From Listeria ivanovii subsp. londoniensis (lineage in GTDB: Bacteria; Bacillota; Bacilli; Lactobacillales; Listeriaceae), in the NCBI RefSeq assembly GCF_000763495.1, contig NZ_CP009576.1, forward strand, positions 1,932,001 to 1,996,000: a stretch of DNA of 64,000 nucleotides, in the 5' to 3' direction. Numbering within the stretch: the stretch's first letter is position 1; every line of letters starts with the position of its first letter. This document shows positions 14,733-30,744 of this stretch, in pieces. The position numbers were made by a program, and so were the translations under genes. Under the pieces are notes generated by a model. It made no database searches. It was not told the DNA's origin and saw only the letters and a program-made list of their open reading frames with translations.

Positions 14733-14804
14733 GTCCCCTTAGTAAAACGGATATTACGAATCCCTCCTAAGGATTAAGTGCAGGTTCGATTCCTGCAGGG
14801 GACA
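14733..14804 (+). tRNA. tRNA-Arg (anticodon CCU)
   Basis: A full cloverleaf can be drawn: acceptor GTCCCCT / AGGGGAC, anticodon stem AATCC / GGATT with loop CTCCTAA (anticodon CCT), T stem GCAGG / CCTGC with loop TTCGATT, and discriminator A at 14804. It is 72 bases long and CCA is not encoded. It reads the rare Arg codon AGG. A terminator follows at once. No att-like duplication of its 3' end is seen nearby, so it is not an occupied integration site here. Confidence 0.93.
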
Positions 14805-14811
14805 TTTTATC

Positions 14812-14845
14812 CTGTATACCTTATTGGAAGGTATACAGTTTTTAT
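14812..14845 (+). terminator. terminator of the tRNA gene
   Basis: A perfect 11-bp stem CTGTATACCTT / AAGGTATACAG closed by ATTGG is followed by TTTTTAT. It lies between the tRNA and the convergent rhodanese-like gene. Confidence 0.9.
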
Positions 14846-15208
14846 TTATAATATTTCAATTGGTAAATTCATGCCTTTCCATCCTTCGAGAGCACCGGCT
14901 AATTCATAGGCTTCAAAATCAGCGGAAAGGAGAATAAGTAAAGCTTCTTTGCCTAGAGTTGTTCCACCAGTCCAATCATAAACAACATAAATTTTATTTT
15001 TGTCTAATTGATTTAAGTGATTGGCTAAATCTTTTGCTGGCATAGCGATGGCACCCTTGATTTGGTCTTTTTTGATGTGTGCTGGGGCATTACGAACATC
15101 TAGAACGACATAACGGGAATTTTCTTTTCCGAGGCTTTCTAAAACTGTAAAGTGGTTGATATATAAGCTCAAATAAGTTTCTAATAATTCGATTTTCTTT
15201 GTTTGCAT
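14846..15208 (-). CDS. rhodanese-fold protein lacking the catalytic cysteine
   Basis: A 120-residue single-domain rhodanese homologue. The fold is marked by VVLDVRNAPAHIKKDQIKGA (residues about 33-53), the Ala-Met-Pro turn, and the C-terminal AYELAGALEGWKGMNLPI. The loop that normally carries the active cysteine reads VVYDWTGGTTLGKEA, with Asp where Cys is expected, so sulfur transfer is unlikely. It follows the MarR regulator by 3 bases and is probably co-expressed, perhaps as a ligand-binding or scaffold protein. Confidence 0.75.
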   Translation of the reverse strand: MQTKKIELLETYLSLYINHFTVLESLGKENSRYVVLDVRNAPAHIKKDQIKGAIAMPAKDLANHLNQLDKNKIYVVYDWTGGTTLGKEALLILLSADFEAYELAGALEGWKGMNLPIEIL

Positions 15209-15211
15209 TCG

Positions 15212-15739
15212 TTATTGCTCCATTTCCTGGGTTGCATTTGCAGTACCCTGTTTTATTTTTTTAAGTAAATATGAAAATTGTTGCATTTCTTCCAGAGTTA
15301 GTTGATCAAACAATTGATGTACCGTTTGAAAGTTGATTGGTAAAAAGTCCTCTAATATGTTCATTCCTGCTTCTGTTAGTTGGACAGGGATAGCGCGCTT
15401 ATCCACCGTGGAAGTTTTTTTTGCAATCCAGCCCTTTAGTTCCATTGCCTTTAATAATTTACTAACCGTCGCACGAGTTGCCCCTAGTTTCTCCGCGATG
15501 ACAGAGGGCAATAGCTCCTGATTTTGTGCTCGCTTTAAGAACATTAGAATGATGAATCTCGATTCGCTTAAATTATTTTTATCAAGCACATCATCATAGA
15601 CTTTTTGCATATTCCGATAGGTCCATTGAAAATCCAGGAATAATTCGGTGATTATCGCATCTTCCTCAGAAACATCATTCATTAGTTGAATTCGTTGGTT
15701 ACTTGGTCGATCGACAAAAGAATAATTATCCATAAACAA
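15212..15739 (-). CDS. MarR family transcriptional regulator
   Basis: A 175-residue winged-helix regulator. The DNA-binding segment LLPSVIAEKLGATRATVSKLLKAMELKGWI (about 90-119) is followed by the wing TSTVDKRAIPVQLTEAG, typical of MarR proteins. It heads a two-gene operon with the rhodanese-like protein, and a promoter with a small inverted repeat lies upstream, so autorepression is likely. The inducer is unknown. Confidence 0.88.
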   Translation of the reverse strand: MFMDNYSFVDRPSNQRIQLMNDVSEEDAIITELFLDFQWTYRNMQKVYDDVLDKNNLSESRFIILMFLKRAQNQELLPSVIAEKLGATRATVSKLLKAMELKGWIAKKTSTVDKRAIPVQLTEAGMNILEDFLPINFQTVHQLFDQLTLEEMQQFSYLLKKIKQGTANATQEMEQ

Positions 15740-15754
15740 GCTCCTTTAATTTGA

Positions 15755-15805
15755 TTAGCTGGCTAACTATATTGATAGTATCTCATATCTTAATTTAGAA
15801 GTCAA
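15755..15805 (-). promoter_or_regulatory. promoter and candidate MarR operator
   Basis: Read leftward, TTGACT (15805-15800), a 17-base spacer and GATACT (15782-15777) form a promoter. Just downstream lies the inverted repeat TTAGC-CA-GCTAA (15755-15766), between the start point and the ribosome-binding site, where a repressor would block transcription. Confidence 0.55.
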
Positions 15806-15862
15806 TCAATAATTAACTATTTTATTAGTCCCTATATAAGGGGATATTCGCAAAAATAATAA

Positions 15863-15903
15863 GACCTCCAAGGTTAGAGTAGCAATCTAACTTTGGGAGG
15901 TCC
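15863..15903 (-). terminator. terminator after the SDR gene
   Basis: On the minus strand GACCTCCCAAAGTTAGA pairs with TCTAACCTTGGAGGTC, then TTATTATTTTT follows. The stem sequence resembles the terminator at 29695-29734. Confidence 0.8.
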
Positions 15904-15911
15904 GCTTCCGT

Positions 15912-16796
15912 TTATTTTTGGTAAAAAGCATTGATGTCTTGGATTAGGGGTGAATGAGTAGGATTCCATTGTAATAATTTTTTTGTGATTATACTAGTCA
16001 TTGGATTATCCGCAACTGCTGAAAGTGCAAACCAGCCTAAATAGTCTTCTGCTTCTTCACTCGTTACACTTTTTACCGGAATATCAAGATTTTTCGCGAT
16101 GGTTTCAGCAATTTCTTTCATAGAAATCCCTTCTTCTGCCACGCCATTTAGACGCGTCCCAGCTGGTGCGGATTCAAGCGCCAAGCAAAATAAATGAGCT
16201 GCATCCGCCCGGTGGGTTGCTGGCCATACATTATTTCCCTCGTTAATGTAAACGGATGTTCCTTTTTCTGCTGCAATTTGTGCCAATATCGATGCCAGAC
16301 CGTGCCTATCAAGATCATGAACACAAGGCGATAGACGCACAACAGCTGAGCGAACACCTTTGTTAGCTAAATCAATTACTTCATTTTCAGATTCTCCTCT
16401 TGGCATAGCTACAGGTGGTTGGTCCGCTTCTGTTCCTTGGCGTCCTAAACCGGAAATACCTAATGTTCCTCCTGTACTGATAAACGGTTTATCTGTATTT
16501 TCGAGAACAGAACCGATCGCTCTTACAGCTTGTAAATCCATTTCTACCGCTTGATCATACTGGCTAAAATCATTCGAAAACCCAATATGAATAACGCCAT
16601 CTGCTGCTATAGCTCCTTTTTTCAAGACTTCTAAATCGGTTAATTCTCCTCTTAACATTTCAGCCCCCATGTCATTTAAAAGTTTCGCTGATTCTTCAGA
16701 ACGAGCCAAACCAGTAACTTGATTTCCTTTTTCGATTAATTCTTTGACTACTAATGATCCGATAAAACCTGTCCCTCCTGTTATAAATACATGCAT
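15912..16796 (-). CDS. NAD(P)-dependent epimerase/SDR family oxidoreductase
   Basis: A 294-residue atypical extended SDR. The Rossmann motif TGGTGFIGSLVV is at residues 7-18 and the N-terminal half is a clear nucleotide-binding domain; GELTD and VIHIGF segments follow. A canonical YxxxK catalytic pair is not evident, as in many NmrA-like or atypical SDRs, so it may sense rather than reduce. It lies 18 bases after a MarR regulator, the common regulator-plus-detoxification-enzyme arrangement. Confidence 0.82.
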   Translation of the reverse strand: MHVFITGGTGFIGSLVVKELIEKGNQVTGLARSEESAKLLNDMGAEMLRGELTDLEVLKKGAIAADGVIHIGFSNDFSQYDQAVEMDLQAVRAIGSVLENTDKPFISTGGTLGISGLGRQGTEADQPPVAMPRGESENEVIDLANKGVRSAVVRLSPCVHDLDRHGLASILAQIAAEKGTSVYINEGNNVWPATHRADAAHLFCLALESAPAGTRLNGVAEEGISMKEIAETIAKNLDIPVKSVTSEEAEDYLGWFALSAVADNPMTSIITKKLLQWNPTHSPLIQDINAFYQK

Positions 16797-16814
16797 AATG
16801 TTCTCCTTTCGACG

Positions 16815-17288
16815 TTAAAATTTTTCCATTTGTCTTTGTATGATTTGTTTCTCTAAACCATTACTCAGTTTTCCGAGCAGATGGAATAGTTGCTCTTTTT
16901 CATCTTGCGTTAGCTCTGTTGCCCACGCTTCTAATTCAATAACTGCACTTTCTTTATATTCTTTTGCCTGTGTGTGTCCTTTTTCAGTAAGGTATAAATT
17001 AAACGTACGCTTATCGTTCAAATTTTTCCGCTTTTCTAAAAAGCCAGCTTGTTCTAATTTGCTAATAAGTTCCCCACTGGATGAAGAAGTAATTTCCAGC
17101 CGCTTCGTTATTTCTCTTTGTGTTAATCCATCTTCATCAAATAAATATTTTAAAATAATACCTTGGCGCGTGTTAATGCCAATCTCGTTTAATTCTTCCT
17201 TAGAAGAATTACTCGCTCGCATTAATTTTAAACATTGCTCATGACAGCGATGCACTAAAACATAGATTTTTTCTGCATATTTTTGCAC
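16815..17288 (-). CDS. MarR family transcriptional regulator
   Basis: A winged-helix regulator of about 157 residues. Helix-turn-helix DGLTQREITKRLEITSSSSGELISKL and wing RKNLNDKRTFNLYLTEKG are typical of MarR. The frame is open from an ATG at 17318, but GAGGTG followed 9 bases later by GTG at 17288 is the better initiation site. First gene of an operon with the SDR protein, whose expression it probably controls. Confidence 0.82.
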   Translation of the reverse strand: MQKYAEKIYVLVHRCHEQCLKLMRASNSSKEELNEIGINTRQGIILKYLFDEDGLTQREITKRLEITSSSSGELISKLEQAGFLEKRKNLNDKRTFNLYLTEKGHTQAKEYKESAVIELEAWATELTQDEKEQLFHLLGKLSNGLEKQIIQRQMEKF

Positions 17289-17434
17289 TACAAATCGCAC
17301 CTCGATTCTATTGGACAAACCATTTTTCGTTATATTTATTAAGAAGTCTTGATGTTATTTTAGTGCTAACGAACAAAAATGTCAAGGTTCCTTGATAATT
17401 TTCGTTTTTATCTCTTTTTTAATTAATACAACAA

Positions 17435-23603: not shown

Positions 23604-24383
23604 TTACTGCAAGTCTGCACTTTTATTTAGGATTTTTGTGGCGATAAATAGCAGAAAAACACCAAAAAGTAGGTTAAAAATAAAGACTAGGATGGAAAAC
23701 TGAAATTCTAGTCCAATAGAATAATTAAACTGTATTTCTGGACCTAGATCTGGCAACCAGCTACTTCCGATATGCGTTTGTGCTCCATTAATCAGCAGAA
23801 AATAAATAATCGCGGCTATAAATCCAAAGCGGTAACCATTTATCGGAATCATACTAAGCGCCGTCGCTACAATAACGATGCAAACAAATGACATTGTAAC
23901 AAGCCAACTCCCGATAAAAGTTTCGCCAATTATTTTGAGAACGATTAGAAAGCTAAGTTCGGCGTTACCAATTGCCGCTAAAAGTAACGTGAAGAAAAGG
24001 AATCCAGCGGTTAAGATAGTCACTTCCACTAAAGCAACAATTAATTTGTTCACTAGTATTTTCCATATAGGTGTTTCGGTTTGAAAAAATAAATAACGTT
24101 TTTCATCATATACGCCTATACTGGGTGCTGCCACAAAAATAAGCACCCAAATAATTAGCCAACTACCCCCAATAATACTAAAAAGTGATGAAAGAAACTC
24201 ATCCCCAGAAGTAAATGTTGCTACGGAACTACCTGATTCTATTACTAACTGGACACTGTAACCTTTTACTAATTTATAAATCACCCCTGCTAATAAGCAA
24301 ATTAACCAACCAGAAAAAGTTGCCAAAAACCAATAACGACGTGCGTTCCATTCTAATTTCCAGTGTGCTTTAAGCATGTCCAA
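23604..24383 (-). CDS. ABC transporter membrane subunit (YtrC/ABC-2-like)
   Basis: A 259-residue protein with about six hydrophobic helices and no other domain. It overlaps the ATPase gene by 14 bases, so the two are translationally coupled. In the related ytr-type operons such exporters respond to cell-wall antibiotics; here the substrate is inferred only by that analogy. Confidence 0.8.
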   Translation of the reverse strand: MDMLKAHWKLEWNARRYWFLATFSGWLICLLAGVIYKLVKGYSVQLVIESGSSVATFTSGDEFLSSLFSIIGGSWLIIWVLIFVAAPSIGVYDEKRYLFFQTETPIWKILVNKLIVALVEVTILTAGFLFFTLLLAAIGNAELSFLIVLKIIGETFIGSWLVTMSFVCIVIVATALSMIPINGYRFGFIAAIIYFLLINGAQTHIGSSWLPDLGPEIQFNYSIGLEFQFSILVFIFNLLFGVFLLFIATKILNKSADLQ

Positions 24384-25050
24384 ATACCTCCCGATAATAA
24401 GTCACGACCGATTTATGTTCCACATCTCGAAGTAATTCGGTGTCTTTACGGTCGATAATTTCGCCGCGATTCATTAAGATAATTTCGTCAAACATCATTT
24501 CCATATCTTGAATTAGATGTGTTGTAATCACAAGGGTTGCTTCTTCTTTTAAAAACCGAGCGATACTTTTAACGATATCATCACGCGAAATCAAATCAAT
24601 CTCGGAAAAAGGCTCATCTAACAAATAAAGGCTAGCATCTCGACATAAAATAAGGGTTAGCATTACTTTTGCTGCATTTCCTTTTGAAAGATATTTGGTA
24701 TTTTCTTTAACATTAACACCGAGAGAATGAATCATTTCAGTTGCTTTTTCTGAACTGAAATCCGGAAAAAAGCCATGATAAATTTGAAAATAATCGCGAA
24801 TCACCATGTTTGGTAAAAAATCTTCACTCGGTAAATAAGCAATTCGAGTATCTCCTGCCATGGTAATACTTCCGGAAGTTGACTTTAATAATCCGGAAAT
24901 CGCATTTAACAAGGTAGTTTTTCCAGCCCCATTTGGTCCAAGTAGCCCGATTATTTTTCCTTGCTCCAGCGTTAAGTTAATGTCATTTAATGGTTTGTGT
25001 CTACGATATTTTTTGGTTAGACCCGTTATTGTGATTATGTTATCCGTCAT
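24370..25050 (-). CDS. ABC transporter ATP-binding subunit
   Basis: 226 residues with Walker A LLGPNGAGKTTLL (about 34-46), a signature segment LSKGNAAKVMLTLIL (degenerate LSGGQ, here LSKGN) and Walker B LYLLDEPFSEID. The signature replacement GG to KG is tolerated in ABC-2 type ATPases. Second gene of the GntR-ATPase-permease operon; it overlaps the gntR gene by 11 bases. Confidence 0.88.
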   Translation of the reverse strand: MTDNIITITGLTKKYRRHKPLNDINLTLEQGKIIGLLGPNGAGKTTLLNAISGLLKSTSGSITMAGDTRIAYLPSEDFLPNMVIRDYFQIYHGFFPDFSSEKATEMIHSLGVNVKENTKYLSKGNAAKVMLTLILCRDASLYLLDEPFSEIDLISRDDIVKSIARFLKEEATLVITTHLIQDMEMMFDEIILMNRGEIIDRKDTELLRDVEHKSVVTYYREVFGHA

Positions 25051-25426
25051 GTTCAGTACTCCTTTTTGTTAGTAGTTCTATTGCTGCTTGGCTGTTTAAA
25101 CCAATGCTTTCTGCTTCTTCCAAAAAACGTGTAGCGATTTCCTCGGCCAGCTCACTTTTTAGTTGTTCGAAAACGGCTTTTTCTGAAGTTACAAACGATC
25201 CCATTCCCCGCTTGGCATAAATGTAACCGGCACGTTCTAGCTCTTGATACGCTCGACTAACTGTATTTGGATTAACAGCAAGTGATGCTCCCATTTCACG
25301 GACAGACGGTAATTTATCATCTGATTTCCATTCTCTTGTAACCATCTTTTTCTTCATCCAATCGCAAATCTGACTGTAAATGGGTTTATCTGTATGGAAT
25401 GTTGGTTTCATTATTACCTCCTCCAT
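25040..25426 (-). CDS. GntR family regulator, YtrA subfamily
   Basis: 128 residues: an N-terminal winged helix (KPIYSQICDWMKKKMV, VREMGASLAVNPNTVSRAY, YAKRGMGSFV) followed by a short helical C-terminus, the layout of YtrA-type GntR proteins that lack a large effector domain. Such repressors sit at the head of ABC exporter operons, as here, and bind their own promoter; a matching operator is present upstream. Start ATG with a GGAGG site. Confidence 0.9.
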   Translation of the reverse strand: MEEVIMKPTFHTDKPIYSQICDWMKKKMVTREWKSDDKLPSVREMGASLAVNPNTVSRAYQELERAGYIYAKRGMGSFVTSEKAVFEQLKSELAEEIATRFLEEAESIGLNSQAAIELLTKRSTEHDG

Positions 25427-25434
25427 CTGAAACT

Positions 25435-25478
25435 AGTGTATTAAGTGAATAGTACACTTGAATTAAACTTATTGTCAA
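25435..25478 (-). promoter_or_regulatory. gntR operon promoter with overlapping operator
   Basis: Read leftward, TTGACA (25478-25473) and TACTAT (25454-25449) form a promoter with an 18-base spacer. The inverted repeat AGTGTACTA-N6-TAATACACT (25435-25458, 8 of 9 positions symmetric) covers the -10. This is what a YtrA-type autorepressor site should look like. Confidence 0.7.
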
Positions 25479-25486
25479 GCACAAAA

Positions 25487-25526
25487 AAGCCAGGAATAAG
25501 TATTAAAACACTTTTCCTGGCTTTCC
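25487..25526 (-). terminator. terminator at the left end of the LXG island
   Basis: On the minus strand AAAGCCAGGAAAAGTG pairs with the later ATTCCTGGCTTTTTT. It lies beyond the left direct repeat and may be the original terminator of the oxidoreductase operon. Confidence 0.75.
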
Positions 25527-25550
25527 TTAAAATTATTTTTCTATATTAAA
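25520..25550. repeat. left 31-bp direct repeat flanking the LXG island
   Basis: This 31-base stretch (GCTTTCCTTAAAATTATTTT and the next 11 bases) matches 29748-29778 at 29 of 31 positions, in the same orientation. Read leftward it encodes FNIEK-stop, against FNVEK-stop at the end of the oxidoreductase gene in the right copy, so it is a second copy of that gene's 3' end. Confidence 0.85.
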
Positions 25551-25592
25551 GCTTGATGTTACAAAAAATAGTGTTAGCCATATTAATAATAT

Positions 25593-26045
25593 TTAACTTT
25601 TATAATAACCAACATATAGATTAACATATTTGCTCCCGTTTTTTGGGAATACATGGTAAAAAGGTGTTGCTATATTCAAATTATTTACTTCTAAGGTAGC
25701 TAATAATTCTGCATAAGACTGCTCCGTAACGTTATCAAAATCGCCCACAATGATTGTTTTTAGCAATGGAGTGATTTCAAAATAAGAAGCAAATTGATAA
25801 TCTTCTACTTCAAAGATGTTTTCAATGATTGGAAAAAACATTTCGATATCTATCATTTCATCTGTTGGAACATTATTAAGGCTATAAAAAAAGGGACCTT
25901 TCAAATTATAACCTTCATCAATAATGCCAGAAACAAAATTTTTATAGTTCTCTTCCATTTCAGAATAATAAAATTTAGCTCTTTTACTTACAACATTCTG
26001 AAAGCTAATTTTGTCTGCTGTAAAGACTTTTGGCAACAATTTCAT
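25593..26045 (-). CDS. DUF5085-like protein, second copy in the LXG operon
   Basis: A 150-residue soluble protein. The layout (NVVSKRAKFYYSEM, PFFYSLNNVPTDEMIDIEMFF, SYFEITPLLKTIIVGDF, TPFYHVFPKNGSKYVNLYVG) looks like DUF5085 proteins that accompany LXG toxin operons in Listeria, and the alternating pattern recalls a GyrI-like ligand-binding fold. It overlaps the upstream gene by 4 bases (ATGA). It might be an accessory, a second immunity protein or a chaperone; nothing in the sequence decides. AT-rich codon use. Confidence 0.55.
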   Translation of the reverse strand: MKLLPKVFTADKISFQNVVSKRAKFYYSEMEENYKNFVSGIIDEGYNLKGPFFYSLNNVPTDEMIDIEMFFPIIENIFEVEDYQFASYFEITPLLKTIIVGDFDNVTEQSYAELLATLEVNNLNIATPFYHVFPKNGSKYVNLYVGYYKS

Positions 26046-26491
26046 AGTTTGTCTACCTCACAATATAAATCAATAACAATATCGCCTTCTAAATCCAGAA
26101 GAATGTGATAAATTGTTAATAAAATACCTTTTTCGTTATCAATCTTTTCCTTAATTTCATTATAAGGTATAGCTTCTTCTTGGTCATAATGACGATAATA
26201 ATAATTTGTAGTAAAGTCTAGTCTTTCTTTATAAAAAAACTGTGACTTATTTTCTCCAACAATGTTTATTTTATTGCCAACAGTGGATAAAATAGTCACA
26301 TCATTTGATTCATCAAATGGATTGTATTCAAAGATAGTGGGTGAATCTGCAAAATATCCATTCTGAATTAATACTTTCTTAAACTCAGCGCCAATTTCAG
26401 CAACTTGGTCAAATATCTCTTTATTAGAATCAAGTGTCGCACTAAATCCAATAACATTATTTAGGCTAAATTGTCTTGTTTTTATTTTCAT
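26042..26491 (-). CDS. DUF5085-like protein, first copy in the LXG operon
   Basis: A 149-residue soluble protein of the same general layout as its downstream neighbour (MKIKTRQFSLNNVIGFSAT, FIEYNP-like IFEYNPFDESND, a central YYRHYDQEEAIPYNEI, and a C-terminal ILLDLEGDIVIDLYCE), though identity between the two is low. It overlaps the membrane-protein gene by 4 bases and the following gene by 4 bases, so expression is coupled. Not recognised with certainty; role unknown. Confidence 0.5.
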   Translation of the reverse strand: MKIKTRQFSLNNVIGFSATLDSNKEIFDQVAEIGAEFKKVLIQNGYFADSPTIFEYNPFDESNDVTILSTVGNKINIVGENKSQFFYKERLDFTTNYYYRHYDQEEAIPYNEIKEKIDNEKGILLTIYHILLDLEGDIVIDLYCEVDKL

Positions 26492-27471
26492 TTTTTTCTC
26501 CCAACATGCTTATTTTTTATTTTTTTTATAATCCATTGTATCAAAATTATCATAAATCCAATTAAGATGACAATTACAATAAATCCAAATATATTTTTTA
26601 TTGTTTTAGATAATGCAAATTTCTCATCAATTTTCACCATACCAACTATTATAGCTATTCCTATTAACACATATATATACTTTTTCCTGAGTATTGATTT
26701 CAATCTCCCATTGAAAGAAAAGGGCTTCTGTTCTTTATACTCTTCCCAATAATCTCTATTTACAGATTTCAAATATGTTAGGTAGCCAATTTCTATCAGC
26801 AATCTTGTGAAGGCTAACACAAAAACCAAGGCAAGTAAAAGTCCTAAAATAAATAAAAAATTTGTAAAAAATACGCCTGTAATACTAACTACTCCAAAAA
26901 TAATCCAAGCAGAATTAAAATTAAATACCTTAGAAAAAGCTAGATAATTAGCAACTTTTCTTTGTTCCGAAAAGCCTTTCCTTATATTTTTTCTAATCCA
27001 AAAAACATTATAACAAATAGTCAGTAGAGCTACTGTTCCAATTAAAACTAGAAATATCATTGAATAGGTTGCATTAAAATCAGCTATGTTTGACTTATAC
27101 CCAGTTGATTTACTATTACTAATCATGAATGAAAGAGCTACTAAAATAACTAATTCAATTAATAAAGTAAAAAATAATAATATAGAATTAAATACCTGAT
27201 GTTTATAAACTATTTTTTTGGGAACAAGAAAAAAATAGATATTCAATACAATCGCATAAACCACATAAAATTTTAGCATCCCATATAAAATTGTGCTTGC
27301 TATATTATTGTACCAAGAGTGAATTTCTATTCCTGGGATCAATCCAATAATTGATAGGACTAACAAAGCAATTAATTGGATTCGTAGTGCCCCCACTGAA
27401 CCTCTAGTTTTTGCCAAAGAAATAAAGTATTTTTTATTTAATGATTCTGAACTGTTTATATTTTCTACCAT
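26488..27471 (-). CDS. polytopic membrane protein, candidate immunity factor for the LXG toxin
   Basis: About 327 residues with roughly eight hydrophobic helices (for example IQLIALLVLSIIGLI, SILLFFTLLIELVILVALSF, SMIFLVLIGTVALLTICY, FGFIVIVILIGFMIILI) and a basic C-terminal tail KKIKNKHVGRKK. It follows the toxin directly: the GGGTGA that ends the toxin gene serves as its ribosome-binding site, and ATG at 27471 is the best start (an in-frame ATG at 27510 would overlap the toxin). Known membrane-depolarising LXG toxins such as TspA and TelE are paired with integral-membrane immunity proteins (TsaI, TipE), so immunity is the leading inference. No family name recognised. Confidence 0.65.
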   Translation of the reverse strand: MVENINSSESLNKKYFISLAKTRGSVGALRIQLIALLVLSIIGLIPGIEIHSWYNNIASTILYGMLKFYVVYAIVLNIYFFLVPKKIVYKHQVFNSILLFFTLLIELVILVALSFMISNSKSTGYKSNIADFNATYSMIFLVLIGTVALLTICYNVFWIRKNIRKGFSEQRKVANYLAFSKVFNFNSAWIIFGVVSITGVFFTNFLFILGLLLALVFVLAFTRLLIEIGYLTYLKSVNRDYWEEYKEQKPFSFNGRLKSILRKKYIYVLIGIAIIVGMVKIDEKFALSKTIKNIFGFIVIVILIGFMIILIQWIIKKIKNKHVGRKK

Positions 27472-27476
27472 AGATA

Positions 27477-28961
27477 TCACCCATTCCCAAATAAGAATCC
27501 TCCAACCCAATCACCTACTGCTTTTGTGACAGTCTTAACACCATCTTTAACATGATCTACAGCACTTTTTTTAGGAGGTCCTCCAAATTCCCAATTTATA
27601 GCTACATTAATTCCAACACCCACTGCTGCACCAACAACCGTCCCTAATGGGGGAAGGAATACTGACCCAACCATTGCACCAACCGCAGTAGCACCTGCAG
27701 CTGAACCAATGTCAATTGCAGTATCTGTTACAAAATCGACTGTCTCTCCTGCATCAAGTCCATCAGATAAGTCTATATTTGCTGCAAAATTATTTCCAAT
27801 TGTTAAACCTGTCCCAAGGATACCCAGTCCTTTTCCAAATTTACCAACTTTTGAAGCATCTCCCCACCCTTTAAAATCATTAATAGGATTTAATGCTTCT
27901 TTAAAATTTGAAAGTCCTGCTAACTTTAACTCTCCAAAGTCAATACTCCCATTTGGAAGCATAGAGTAATGATAATTTCCCAGATCAATACCAGATTTGT
28001 TTTGGAAATTTTCACCTAGATTATAAACATGACCTCCATTTGCTGTTGGTTTAAATAAAAATCTATTTCCTAATTTTAATCGACCTAATGAATCTTGAGT
28101 GATAGCAACACCATTTAGAAAAGCACGACCATTTACAAAACTTATAGTTGAAATAGTTCCATCTTTAATATAATCTAAAAAGTCTGGGCCAAATTTATTA
28201 AGGTTTTCGATTAGCCAGTTTTCTGTCTCTTCTGGTGTCATATTTTCCGGTGCATGTGTAGCAATATAGTCTGGTGAATTTTTAAATGCTGTTACATCTT
28301 TTTTGCCTGTAAACCAGCTTTTGTCTGTACCAGTGGGCAAGGTGTATGAGCCATCAGAATTTATAATCGTATTATCTAACACTAATACACCTTGCATAGC
28401 TATATTTAAATCGTTAAGACTATCACTAAACAATCCATTTGTTTGTGAAGAAAAAGTATGTAACTTATCTAATTTTAATTGTAATTGCTCAATATCATCC
28501 TGAATGCTATCTGACATTTGATCTAGTTTTTTCTGAAAATCAAGTAAAGAATCTAGTATTGCTGTAGCTGGATTATTTCTTGAAGCAGCTTTTGCAAGAG
28601 ATGAAGCAAAGTCAACAGAAGCTTTCATCATTTTTTTTATCGCAATTTGCTGATTTAAATTTTCTTCATTTAAATACCCTTCATTTGAAATGTTTTGATC
28701 AGCTGTTTCATATTTTTGTATCTCTAGTTCAATTGCATCACAAGCAGTAGTTACTCGTGTAATAGTTGGGATAATCAGATCGCTAAATATACCTTTTCCC
28801 GCAGTATAAGCTGCACCCGCCAATGAATTTCCATCTACTGCTGCAATGACCTCTTGGCTTCCAAGTTTTAGTTGGTTGATTGCTTCTTTTCCATTTGTTA
28901 AATTACTTGTTAAAGATTGAACTAATTCGGCAGACTCACTACTTGAATAAACTAATCCCAA
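27477..28961 (-). CDS. LXG-domain type VII secreted toxin with glycine-zipper C-terminus
   Basis: 494 residues. Residues about 1-200 are an LXG domain, the helical N-terminus that targets polymorphic toxins to the type VIIb secretion system. A linker follows, then a region with WFTGKKDV and GNRFLFKPTANGGHVYN, and a hydrophobic, glycine-rich C-terminal segment (416-459) with repeated small-xxx-small spacing: GSAAGATAVGAMVG and GTVVGAAVGVG. No nuclease, NADase or lipase motif is seen, so membrane insertion, as for TelE or TspA, is the best guess. Start is TTG at 28961 after GGAGTGAT, overlapping the previous gene by 10 bases. Confidence 0.8.
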   Translation of the reverse strand: MGLVYSSSESAELVQSLTSNLTNGKEAINQLKLGSQEVIAAVDGNSLAGAAYTAGKGIFSDLIIPTITRVTTACDAIELEIQKYETADQNISNEGYLNEENLNQQIAIKKMMKASVDFASSLAKAASRNNPATAILDSLLDFQKKLDQMSDSIQDDIEQLQLKLDKLHTFSSQTNGLFSDSLNDLNIAMQGVLVLDNTIINSDGSYTLPTGTDKSWFTGKKDVTAFKNSPDYIATHAPENMTPEETENWLIENLNKFGPDFLDYIKDGTISTISFVNGRAFLNGVAITQDSLGRLKLGNRFLFKPTANGGHVYNLGENFQNKSGIDLGNYHYSMLPNGSIDFGELKLAGLSNFKEALNPINDFKGWGDASKVGKFGKGLGILGTGLTIGNNFAANIDLSDGLDAGETVDFVTDTAIDIGSAAGATAVGAMVGSVFLPPLGTVVGAAVGVGINVAINWEFGGPPKKSAVDHVKDGVKTVTKAVGDWVGGFLFGNG

Positions 28962-29314
28962 GGAATATCACTCCGCTTCTTATAAAGGATTTCACGTTCT
29001 TCGTCCATTTTTTTCGTTTCATTTTTGTAGGCTGATACAATCTGGTCGTTGGATTCACGTAGTAATTGACGAAATGATTGCTCTTGCTCTTCATTATGAC
29101 GTTTTAACTTATTTGTTTCGAAGCTATCAAATCTTGCATTTTCATTATTTAAATTGTTTAGTTCCTGAAAACCTCTACGAAAGTCTACTTCCAAATTATA
29201 AATAGATTCTTCAAGTTTTCTTTTTCCGTTGCTGAGCTCATCCATTTGCTGTTCATTTTCTAAAATTAGCTGATTATATTTCGCACGTTCATAATCATTT
29301 GACTTTTTATTCAA
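28952..29314 (-). CDS. small helical LXG partner (DUF3958-like)
   Basis: About 120 residues, almost wholly charged coiled-coil (EQQMDELSNGKRKLEESI, NEEQEQSFRQLLRESND, KKMDEEREILYKKR). Proteins of this type (DUF3958 or DUF5082 class) pair with a WXG100-like partner and the LXG domain to form the pre-secretion complex. An in-frame GTG at 29323 is part of the GAGGTG ribosome-binding site, so the TTG at 29314 six bases later is the likely start. It overlaps the toxin gene by 10 bases. Confidence 0.7.
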   Translation of the reverse strand: MNKKSNDYERAKYNQLILENEQQMDELSNGKRKLEESIYNLEVDFRRGFQELNNLNNENARFDSFETNKLKRHNEEQEQSFRQLLRESNDQIVSAYKNETKKMDEEREILYKKRSDIPWD

Positions 29315-29326
29315 ACAATTCACCTC

Positions 29327-29578
29327 TTAAAATGTAATTTGACTATCTTGAAGGGCAATAAGTTCTGCAATTTTGGGGAATTTTTCGCTTTGAGTCGTCA
29401 CACAGTCAATTAGTTGCGCTAAATCTGTCAACAACTGGTTATTAACTTCCATTCCTGTCTTCATACTGGTTATTGTACTTTGCTCTAAAGAGACTTGTTG
29501 TCCTTTATTTATAGTCACTGATTTTACTCCCGCAACGGCAGATGTTGCTGAGCTAGTACTTGAAGCGATGTTACTCAT
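29327..29578 (-). CDS. WXG100-like LXG partner (DUF3130 / SACOL2603-type effector family)
   Basis: 83 residues, serine/alanine-rich start (SNIASSTSSATSAVAG) followed by one long helix and QLIDCVTTQSEKFPKIAELIALQDSQ, the form of DUF3130 proteins found as first gene of LXG operons. These bind the LXG domain and contribute to recognition by the type VII ATPase EssC. The ATG follows a GGGAGGAG site. First gene of the six-gene cassette. Confidence 0.75.
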   Translation of the reverse strand: MSNIASSTSSATSAVAGVKSVTINKGQQVSLEQSTITSMKTGMEVNNQLLTDLAQLIDCVTTQSEKFPKIAELIALQDSQITF

Positions 29579-29600
29579 GAAATGTCTCCTCCCGTCATTT

Positions 29601-29616
29601 ATACTAAAATTAGTAT
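29601..29616. promoter_or_regulatory. inverted repeat in the promoter region of the LXG operon
   Basis: ATACTAA-AA-TTAGTAT is a perfect 7-bp dyad 22 bases upstream of the first gene. It contains a TATACT-like -10 on the minus strand, so a repressor bound here would cover the promoter. No regulator gene is in the cassette. Confidence 0.5.
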
Positions 29617-29694
29617 ATCAAAAAATTGGTACATACTTCCACTAATATTAAAATAGTTGACTACTAAATAATCAGGGTAATTATGTTTCGCCAC

Positions 29695-29734
29695 AAAAAA
29701 TACCGACCTCCAAAAGTTAGATTTTTGGGGTCGG
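29695..29734 (-). terminator. terminator after the oxidoreductase gene
   Basis: On the minus strand CCGACCCCAAAA and TTTTGGAGGTCGG pair, followed by TATTTTTTG. It lies inside the right direct repeat boundary, so in the island model it came with the insert. Confidence 0.8.
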
Positions 29735-29747
29735 TTCATAGTATTAC

Positions 29748-29778
29748 GCTTTCCTTTAAATTATTTTTCTACATTAAA
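29748..29778. repeat. right 31-bp direct repeat (end of the oxidoreductase gene)
   Basis: GCTTTCCTTTAAATTATTTT and the next 11 bases match 25520-25550 at 29 of 31 positions. The repeat covers the stop codon and last five sense codons of the oxidoreductase gene. Confidence 0.85.
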
Positions 29779-30744
29779 CCAAATATCATTTTGATGGCGG
29801 AGTTCGTTTGAGACACGTAGTACTTTTAAGCTTAAGTCAGCTAAGTATTCATAGGTATCACGGTCACTTTGTTCGATAATTCTTGCAAACTCTGCAGCTT
29901 CAAATTGCATATCATTAGGAACAGTTGGTCCTGCTAGTTCGGTCACTTCTTTTGTGGCATTATCATAAAAAGTAATATTTTCAATACCCGTAAGCGGATC
30001 AATAATCAAGGTTCCTTTTTGACCATAAATTTCGCTTGGTAAGAAGGACTGTGAATTTTTCCCTTGAATAATCGTGATGTTAAATGTAGGATATTCCAAA
30101 ATAATTGGTCCTAATCCATCCACCCCAGTTGGTAGTTTTGTGGCAAAATAAGTTGCTTTCACTGGTTCTCCGAATAGAGTAATTGCTGAATAAAGCGGAT
30201 ATACGCCTAAATCAACAATCGAGCCACCTGAAAATTTCAATGAGAAGATATTTGGTTCTTCTCCATTTAAAACTTGGTCATATCGGGATGAATATTTCAT
30301 ATAAGATAGTGTTGCCCCATGGATTGTGCCAATTTTTGTTAAATTTTCTTGCACTTTTTTGAAATTAGGTTCTTGAATATGGCGAGCCGCTTCAAATAAG
30401 AAAACATTATTTTCACGAGCAATTTGGTGCGCATATTCAAGTTCTGCCACGGTAGAAAAAATTGGTTTTTCAACGATGACATGTTTTTTATTTTTGAGTA
30501 GGCTTACCGCATGCTCAAAGTGAAGGGCATTCGGGGAAGCAATATAAACAGCGTCTAGTACGTCTGCTTTCCCCATTTCTTCTATGTCTGTAAAATAAGT
30601 TAGTTCGCCATATTTTTCTCCAAATGCGCGGGCTTTTTCTTCTGTTCGTGAATAAACAGCCGTAAGTGTCCACTCTCCTGAATTTAAAGCGCCTTCAATA
30701 AAGGCATCTGTAATCCAATTTGTCCCCATAATTCCAAGTTTCAT
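29761..30744 (-). CDS. Gfo/Idh/MocA family NAD(P)-dependent oxidoreductase
   Basis: 327 residues. The N-terminal Rossmann fold starts MKLGIMGTNWITDAFI, and the catalytic-lysine motif EKP is at residues 92-94 (HVIVEKPIFST). The C-terminal domain (about 125-325) is the beta-sheet substrate domain. Members oxidise or reduce sugars and inositols. As last gene of the GH3-GH94-LacI operon it probably acts on a glucose-derived product, but this is context only. Its last codons form the right repeat of the LXG island. AAAGGAG site before the ATG. Confidence 0.87.
   Translation of the reverse strand: MKLGIMGTNWITDAFIEGALNSGEWTLTAVYSRTEEKARAFGEKYGELTYFTDIEEMGKADVLDAVYIASPNALHFEHAVSLLKNKKHVIVEKPIFSTVAELEYAHQIARENNVFLFEAARHIQEPNFKKVQENLTKIGTIHGATLSYMKYSSRYDQVLNGEEPNIFSLKFSGGSIVDLGVYPLYSAITLFGEPVKATYFATKLPTGVDGLGPIILEYPTFNITIIQGKNSQSFLPSEIYGQKGTLIIDPLTGIENITFYDNATKEVTELAGPTVPNDMQFEAAEFARIIEQSDRDTYEYLADLSLKVLRVSNELRHQNDIWFNVEK

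Follow-up and report, generated by a model that had tools for sequence, protein, structure and literature searches.

Copies of a gene end around an LXG toxin cassette in Listeria: a probable att-bounded island without an integrase

How did a toxin operon in Listeria come to lie between two copies of the 3' end of an oxidoreductase gene? Such copies around a toxin block are the kind of scar that mobile DNA leaves when it inserts at gene ends. The locus is found in a 64,000-nucleotide stretch of the Listeria ivanovii subsp. londoniensis chromosome (NZ_CP009576.1, positions 1,932,001 to 1,996,000), the whole of which we call the window and to which unlabelled coordinates refer; the genome is a single contig of 3.05 Mb. 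Six genes on the minus strand (25593-29578) form an LXG operon between a GntR-ABC operon and gfo (29761-30744, minus strand), which encodes an intact Gfo/Idh/MocA oxidoreductase of 327 aa (PF01408) and which we take to be lmo1726. The original prediction described an island that used the 3' end of this gene as its target and had attachment-site (att)-like boundaries. Our comparison supports the repeat as a target duplication made together with the island, and we consider it probable that the gfo island is an att-bounded genomic island without an integrase, a remnant of the type known as a cis-mobilizable element (CIME).

Repeats, empty sites and recent transfer

The two copies (25520-25550 and 29748-29778) have the same orientation, are spaced 4228 bp apart and agree at 29 of 31 positions, as originally predicted; in 200 dinucleotide shuffles of both 2-kb flanks, the best pairs of 31-mers reached 21-24 matches. 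The right, attR-like copy (29748-29780, minus strand) forms the true end of gfo with its last codons and stop codon. The left, attL-like copy (25520-25552, minus strand) is a detached gfo 3' end, reading FNIEK-stop with no gene attached, and it also includes some of the 3' arm of the terminator that originally served gfo. The prediction that the gene was left intact, with a copy at the far end, therefore holds. Apart from itself, a genome-wide search with 25400-25560 retrieved the right copy, one match in inverted orientation inside its own terminator and nothing else (E up to 0.001). Listeria immobilis FSL L7-1519 carries the island as well, with the same spacing of 4228 bp and a 33-bp repeat, GCTTTCC[A/T]TTAAATTATTTTTCTACATTAAACC; as this repeat has a single mismatch, the left copy of the window has drifted slightly more.

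We compared the gfo locus in 25 Listeria genomes, one per species. An orthologous locus is present in 22, the other three yielding only paralogues of about 31-32% identity. The island and two repeat copies occur in the window species and L. immobilis only; in the remaining 20 of the 22, the site is uninterrupted, as established by sequence in 13 and by gene adjacency in seven. The GntR gene directly adjoins gfo in eight island-free genomes, and in five close and six distant species, which lack the ABC operon, a DEAD-box gene is the neighbour; this gene also lies next to gfo, 113 bp away, in one more genome, G007, where gfo is read across two frames. None of these 20 species representatives keeps both repeats or carries the left copy, the two patterns that the original prediction had named as contrary to an insertion. 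A degenerate pattern of the gfo end likewise has two matches at the locus in both island carriers and in no other genome, with a single match in each of the 13 close species; for the distant species the pattern is too stringent, and its matches elsewhere all belong to one conserved sequence that is unrelated.

The 13 close empty sites also reveal what each copy represents. When the flank of the left repeat is joined to gfo, it aligns with all of them as one continuous junction, the terminator arm followed by the gfo end, with the repeat present as a single copy in 13 of 13. Thus, the left copy corresponds to the old junction and the right copy to gfo itself. The island accordingly has repeats matching its target at both ends and a single-repeat empty site in all 20 island-free species that bear gfo, which supports the repeat as a target duplication made with the island.

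The most recent movement of the island was of another kind. Identity to L. immobilis of about 98% extends over 25300-30480, that is, past the repeats by about 220 bp on the left and about 700 bp on the right: the island itself has 98.2%, the 93 bp beyond the left repeat have 97.8% and the 700 bp of gfo beside the right repeat have 97.9%, compared with a mean of 82% in 17 neighbouring 500-bp segments. In the wider profile, single segments elsewhere (10001 and 40001) reach 95-99%, and no other multi-kb tract is so high. Two further genomes (G013 and G020) have flanks that are mostly closer to the window, yet they lack the island. Hence, the last transfer of the island between the two lineages took place by homologous recombination in the flanks, with no fresh insertion at the repeat. 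The earlier suggestion of spread by recombination between shared gene ends was right about recombination in this recent transfer, but the DNA used was the flanking gfo and GntR-promoter sequence and not the 31-bp ends alone.

LXG cassettes at other gene ends

Beyond gfo, related LXG cassettes are flanked by duplicated gene-end regions at seven more places, namely tRNA-Lys and six sites occupied by the LXG subfamily of the window. In a scan of 80 further Listeria LXG loci, among the matches listed, comparable repeats (E up to 1e-6) appeared only in L125 and L169, two genomes in which the 3' end of tRNA-Lys is repeated, over 53 and 48 bp, on both sides of the cassette. The tRNA gene is complete in L125; the L169 stretch holds only its 3' end. 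No integrase was found among the open reading frames (ORFs) read at these two loci. Judged by its neighbours, the site appears to be variable region 2 of Listeria monocytogenes, which is described as starting at tRNA-Lys and as open to prophage insertion, too (PMC10327511). Four loci with strong, mostly long repeats (L097, L098, L099 and L166) were excluded as probably paralogous, without individual inspection, and weaker hits (E up to 1e-3) occurred in L094, L100, L118, L126 and L168; among control stretches, 1/22 had a repeat at 1e-3 and 0/22 at 1e-6.

The subfamily set comprises 57 loci, the window and L. immobilis included, and the LXG gene is enclosed by gene-end-region repeats at seven distinct sites, of which gfo is one. 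The others involve sufB (100 bp), a SufT-like gene (154 bp), a PTS-IIB-like gene (195 bp), mnmG (39 bp), the region downstream of rpsD (161 bp, 79% identity), all five named by eye, and the 5' end of an ABC gene in L265 (172 bp). Recombinase pieces accompany two of the loci: in L212, the end of a tyrosine integrase (PF00589, 4.7e-8) lies just outside the left copy, and a second pair of 27 bp has a different left partner; in L265, a serine-recombinase piece (PF07508, 2.6e-5) lies beside the repeat. A 67-aa ORF in L219, taken by eye for an integrase fragment, matched no integrase in Pfam or NCBIfam and was not used. The spanning pairs of L222, L270 and L275 were judged to be repeats between toxin or immunity modules. 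Searches for an empty site returned no match at E 1e-60 in two other genomes of the same genus for L265, and none at E 1e-10 in five for L221.

Among these sites, sufB offers the strongest analogy for an att-like reading of the gfo repeats. The gene is present in all 22 genomes of one Enterococcus genus-level group, seven of which hold a detached second copy of its 3' end and terminator only, six at a distance of 5-12 kb and one on another contig. The identity of the detached copies runs from 90% down to 72%, the copy in G306 being weak (72%, E 1.5e-4). The sufB interval of G154 (L306) contains LXG and immunity-type ORFs, the latter labelled by eye, with no integrase among the ORFs read, and the interval of G147 contains the LXG gene of L224. 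Detached copies also occur in G290, G251, G306, G338 and G378. When about 1.5 kb downstream of sufB was inspected in 20 loci, four had a tyrosine integrase about 100 bp after the gene, whole in L295, L298 and L304 and in part in L297; the genomes of L297 and L304 carry a detached sufB copy as well. Prophages of Latilactobacillus are described as integrating in sufB, with the attL TACCCTACGGACCCTTCCA (PMC9641780), and the complement of this published attL matches the Enterococcus sufB repeat at 16 of 19 positions.

Origin of the island

In the history that we consider probable, an element once integrated site-specifically between the gfo stop codon and the gfo terminator. This insertion, whose trace is the duplication of about 33 bp of the gfo 3' end, would have been the work of an integrase. 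What is left would be a type VIIb secretion system (T7SSb) toxin cassette of the TelE/TipE type, with an LXG toxin, two small partners and a DUF5085 protein of predicted immunity function, and, as the identity profile shows, the island has since moved between the window species and L. immobilis by homologous recombination in its flanks.

Several observations weigh against an integrase. By gene adjacency and ORF reading, none is present at gfo in the 22 loci, and the gfo-end pattern has 0 matches in viral contigs. Most LXG loci scanned are without such repeats, the strong and simple ones being confined, among the 80 other Listeria loci, to the two at tRNA-Lys. Of the 57 subfamily loci, 12 have an LXG-spanning pair (L223 counted without inspection) and ten others have non-spanning pairs only, so that the enrichment is weak by count alone. 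Integrase-like genes are no more frequent near LXG loci (7/139 stretches, with some loci counted twice) than in controls (2/29), and we rejected an integrase near LXG as a general feature. Finally, the cassette repeats vary from 33 to 195 bp and one of them duplicates a gene 5' end, which fits poorly with a single integrase type. Given the lack of an integrase at gfo and of integrase enrichment, the weak over-representation of repeats and the 5'-end duplication, an integrase origin is something that we infer, and still hold to be probable, by analogy. The original proposal of an insertion that uses the 3' end of a protein gene stands in so far as the target duplication is tied to the island; the integrase as its agent is suggested by comparison, and no recombinase was found at gfo. 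The proposed att-like boundary of an LXG cassette draws in the same way on the cassettes between other gene ends and on the sufB prophage site.

Mobile elements with related cargo were also surveyed. An alignment search of viral contigs for LXG gave no confirmed relative, and Listeria phage records contain only small pieces around gfo and of the hairpin beside it described below. Three Enterococcus plasmid records, one of them typed as conjugative, carry related LXG genes, and none has the island. In L307 (AP025691.1, 30413-43060), on a conjugative-typed plasmid of Enterococcus sp. PLM3, an FtsK-domain gene lies near an LXG gene of the window's subfamily.

The duplication could instead have arisen without any integrase, if the LXG cassette arrived on a DNA molecule that also bore a short segment of the gfo end and that entered by a single, Campbell-type crossover or by repair of a staggered break. 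An island without an integrase, repeat lengths of such wide range and the 5'-end duplication in L265 all agree with this route, and flank recombination has demonstrably moved the island. A stretch of 33 bp is, however, short for RecA recombination. Moreover, most of the duplications lie at gene 3' ends or terminators, which is typical of tyrosine integrases (PMC5704250), and both sufB and tRNA-Lys are published integration sites (PMC9641780, PMC10327511). We regard an insertion of this sort as conceivable but rather unlikely. A further candidate agent lies beside gfo, where a hairpin (29679-29738, minus strand; fold -21.2 kcal/mol, z -4.6) probably represents the left-end relic of an IS3-family element, its outer end placed by eye. 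It shares 88-90% identity over about 50 bp with two plasmid stretches and 78% identity across 51 bp with the terminus of an IS3-type element in L265, where transposase domains were found. That the relic ends 9 bp from the right repeat, and that the related cassette of L265 has an IS3-type element at its border, would suit an insertion sequence (IS) that carried the cassette in. IS3-family elements, however, duplicate just a few bp on insertion, and in L265 the element sits at the opposite end of the cassette. Because the repeat far exceeds such a duplication and no IS end is seen at the left repeat, we rejected IS-driven insertion as very improbable. Least credible of all, the left copy might be a stump left over from a former second gfo gene, or the repeat might have arisen by chance. 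The left copy reads FNIEK-stop, and nothing more speaks for a stump; it continues the ancestral junction of terminator and gfo seen in the 13 empty sites, and no second gfo end lies beside gfo in the 20 other gfo loci, which already contradicts this explanation. Chance is ruled out by the shuffles, with their maximum of 24/31, and by the empty sites.

In the history that we favour, the two hairpins around the operon would also have taken on new roles. The original terminator-like hairpin of gfo (25475-25530, minus strand; fold -23.7 kcal/mol, z -5.3), which has the corresponding position between GntR and gfo where the site is empty, now lies at the end of the LXG operon and would terminate it, while gfo itself may use the IS3-derived hairpin as its terminator. 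A simple promoter and terminator scan was uninformative and flagged neither hairpin.

More tentatively, and in our view doubtfully, LXG cassettes across Lactobacillales might be integrase-less, att-bounded units that recur at the sites of prophages and integrative and conjugative elements (ICEs), such as sufB, tRNA-Lys, mnmG, gfo and others, and owe their movement in trans to the integrases of those elements. If so, toxin repertoires would spread as passengers of the target sites of other elements.

Toxin operon, genomic surroundings and known systems

The operon begins with an 83-aa WXG-like partner (29327-29578), which is weakly matched by TIGR04197 (E 0.014, 15.9 bits against a cut-off of 26) and conserved at 52-86% identity in 15/17 related loci, followed by a 123-aa small partner (28952-29323) with 34-69% identity in 14/17. 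The 494-aa LXG T7SSb effector (27477-28961) has a glycine-rich C-terminus that resembles a glycine zipper by eye. Its PF04740 score of 25.0 bits lies below the cut-off of 26.5, which the LXG protein of the related locus L219 passes with 29.0 bits; its assignment rests on 47-77% identity, over the matched part, to the LXG proteins of 17/17 related loci. Downstream are a hydrophobic, by eye membrane-like protein (26488-27510; 340 aa from a TTG start, 327 aa in the stretch searched; 32-34% in L265 and L220), a 149-aa protein without a Pfam family (26042-26491; 81% in L265, 50% in L220 and unmatched in the other 15 loci compared) and a 150-aa DUF5085 protein (25593-26045; PF16895, E 5.3e-23), a TipE-like predicted immunity protein that is encoded third downstream of the LXG gene. 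All six genes are on the minus strand. None of the six ORFs matched an integrase or transfer gene in Pfam and NCBIfam, the short reading frames at the edges being judged by eye only. The same cassette is present at another target in L265, a locus from a different family, with 77% identity in the LXG protein, 81% in the DUF5085 protein and only 34% in the membrane-like protein.

By sequence, this arrangement matches a published type of LXG operon, in which a TelE-like toxin is accompanied by a TipE-like DUF5085 protein. The tipE gene of Streptococcus gallolyticus, which codes for a DUF5085 immunity protein, is described as lying third downstream of telE, and a six-pass protein encoded beside telE gave no protection (PMC10434224). 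The window operon shares with it the LXG toxin with a glycine-zipper C-terminus, the multi-pass protein next to it and the DUF5085 gene in third place; homology and gene order thus point to toxicity of the LXG protein and immunity by the DUF5085 protein as the likely functions. Unlike telE, which is located near the T7SSb machinery (PMC10434224), the window cassette at 1.96 Mb is far from essC at 0.11 Mb, where the genome encodes the EssC component (TIGR03928, 1939 bits).

Other features of the surroundings deserve mention. Of 15 close Listeria species, 10 have the GntR-ABC operon that adjoins the island (23604-25426) and 5 lack it; the permease that it encodes has diverged to an unusual degree, with 55-77% protein identity between orthologues and the window. 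A tRNA-Arg(CCT) gene (14733-14804) is followed, up to 17320, by rhodanese-like, NAD-dependent epimerase-like and two MarR-like regulator genes (names by eye); about 15.0-17.0 kb is unmatched in the fetched stretches of four related genomes, and no direct repeat was found at the ends of 14733-17320. The same genome has a further LXG cassette (L161, G000:C1:2901001-2921000) amid genes that by eye are of Tn3-type and Tn554-like transposons and cadmium resistance; a PF00589 recombinase was confirmed there by domain search.

LXG toxins vary sharply between strains. The L. monocytogenes LXG hotspots, variable region 2 among them, likewise bring together, at defined places in the chromosome, an LXG gene, its small partners and immunity genes (PMC10327511). 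That work gives the places of the cassettes, apparently without their route of arrival, and its main text contains neither 'direct repeat' nor 'integrase' (0 occurrences each) and names no lmo17.. gene. In the open-licence literature, we found no report of att-bounded LXG islands. The defined boundary, the empty sites and the counterparts at other gene ends, one of them a published prophage site, offer a testable route, in which att-bounded cassettes are combined with flank recombination.

The closest known kind of element is the CIME, a decayed ICE or integrative and mobilizable element that keeps attL and attR (PMC5704250). For the gfo island, no parent element or active integrase is known and mobilisation is only putative, in which it differs from the CIMEs described there. 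It resembles them in its direct repeats at a gene 3' end, the absence of integrase and transfer genes and the intact target gene, and several kinds of element share sites such as sufB and tRNA-Lys, as in that description (PMC5704250). The kind is thus already known, and the gfo island would be a new case of it with an unusual cargo.

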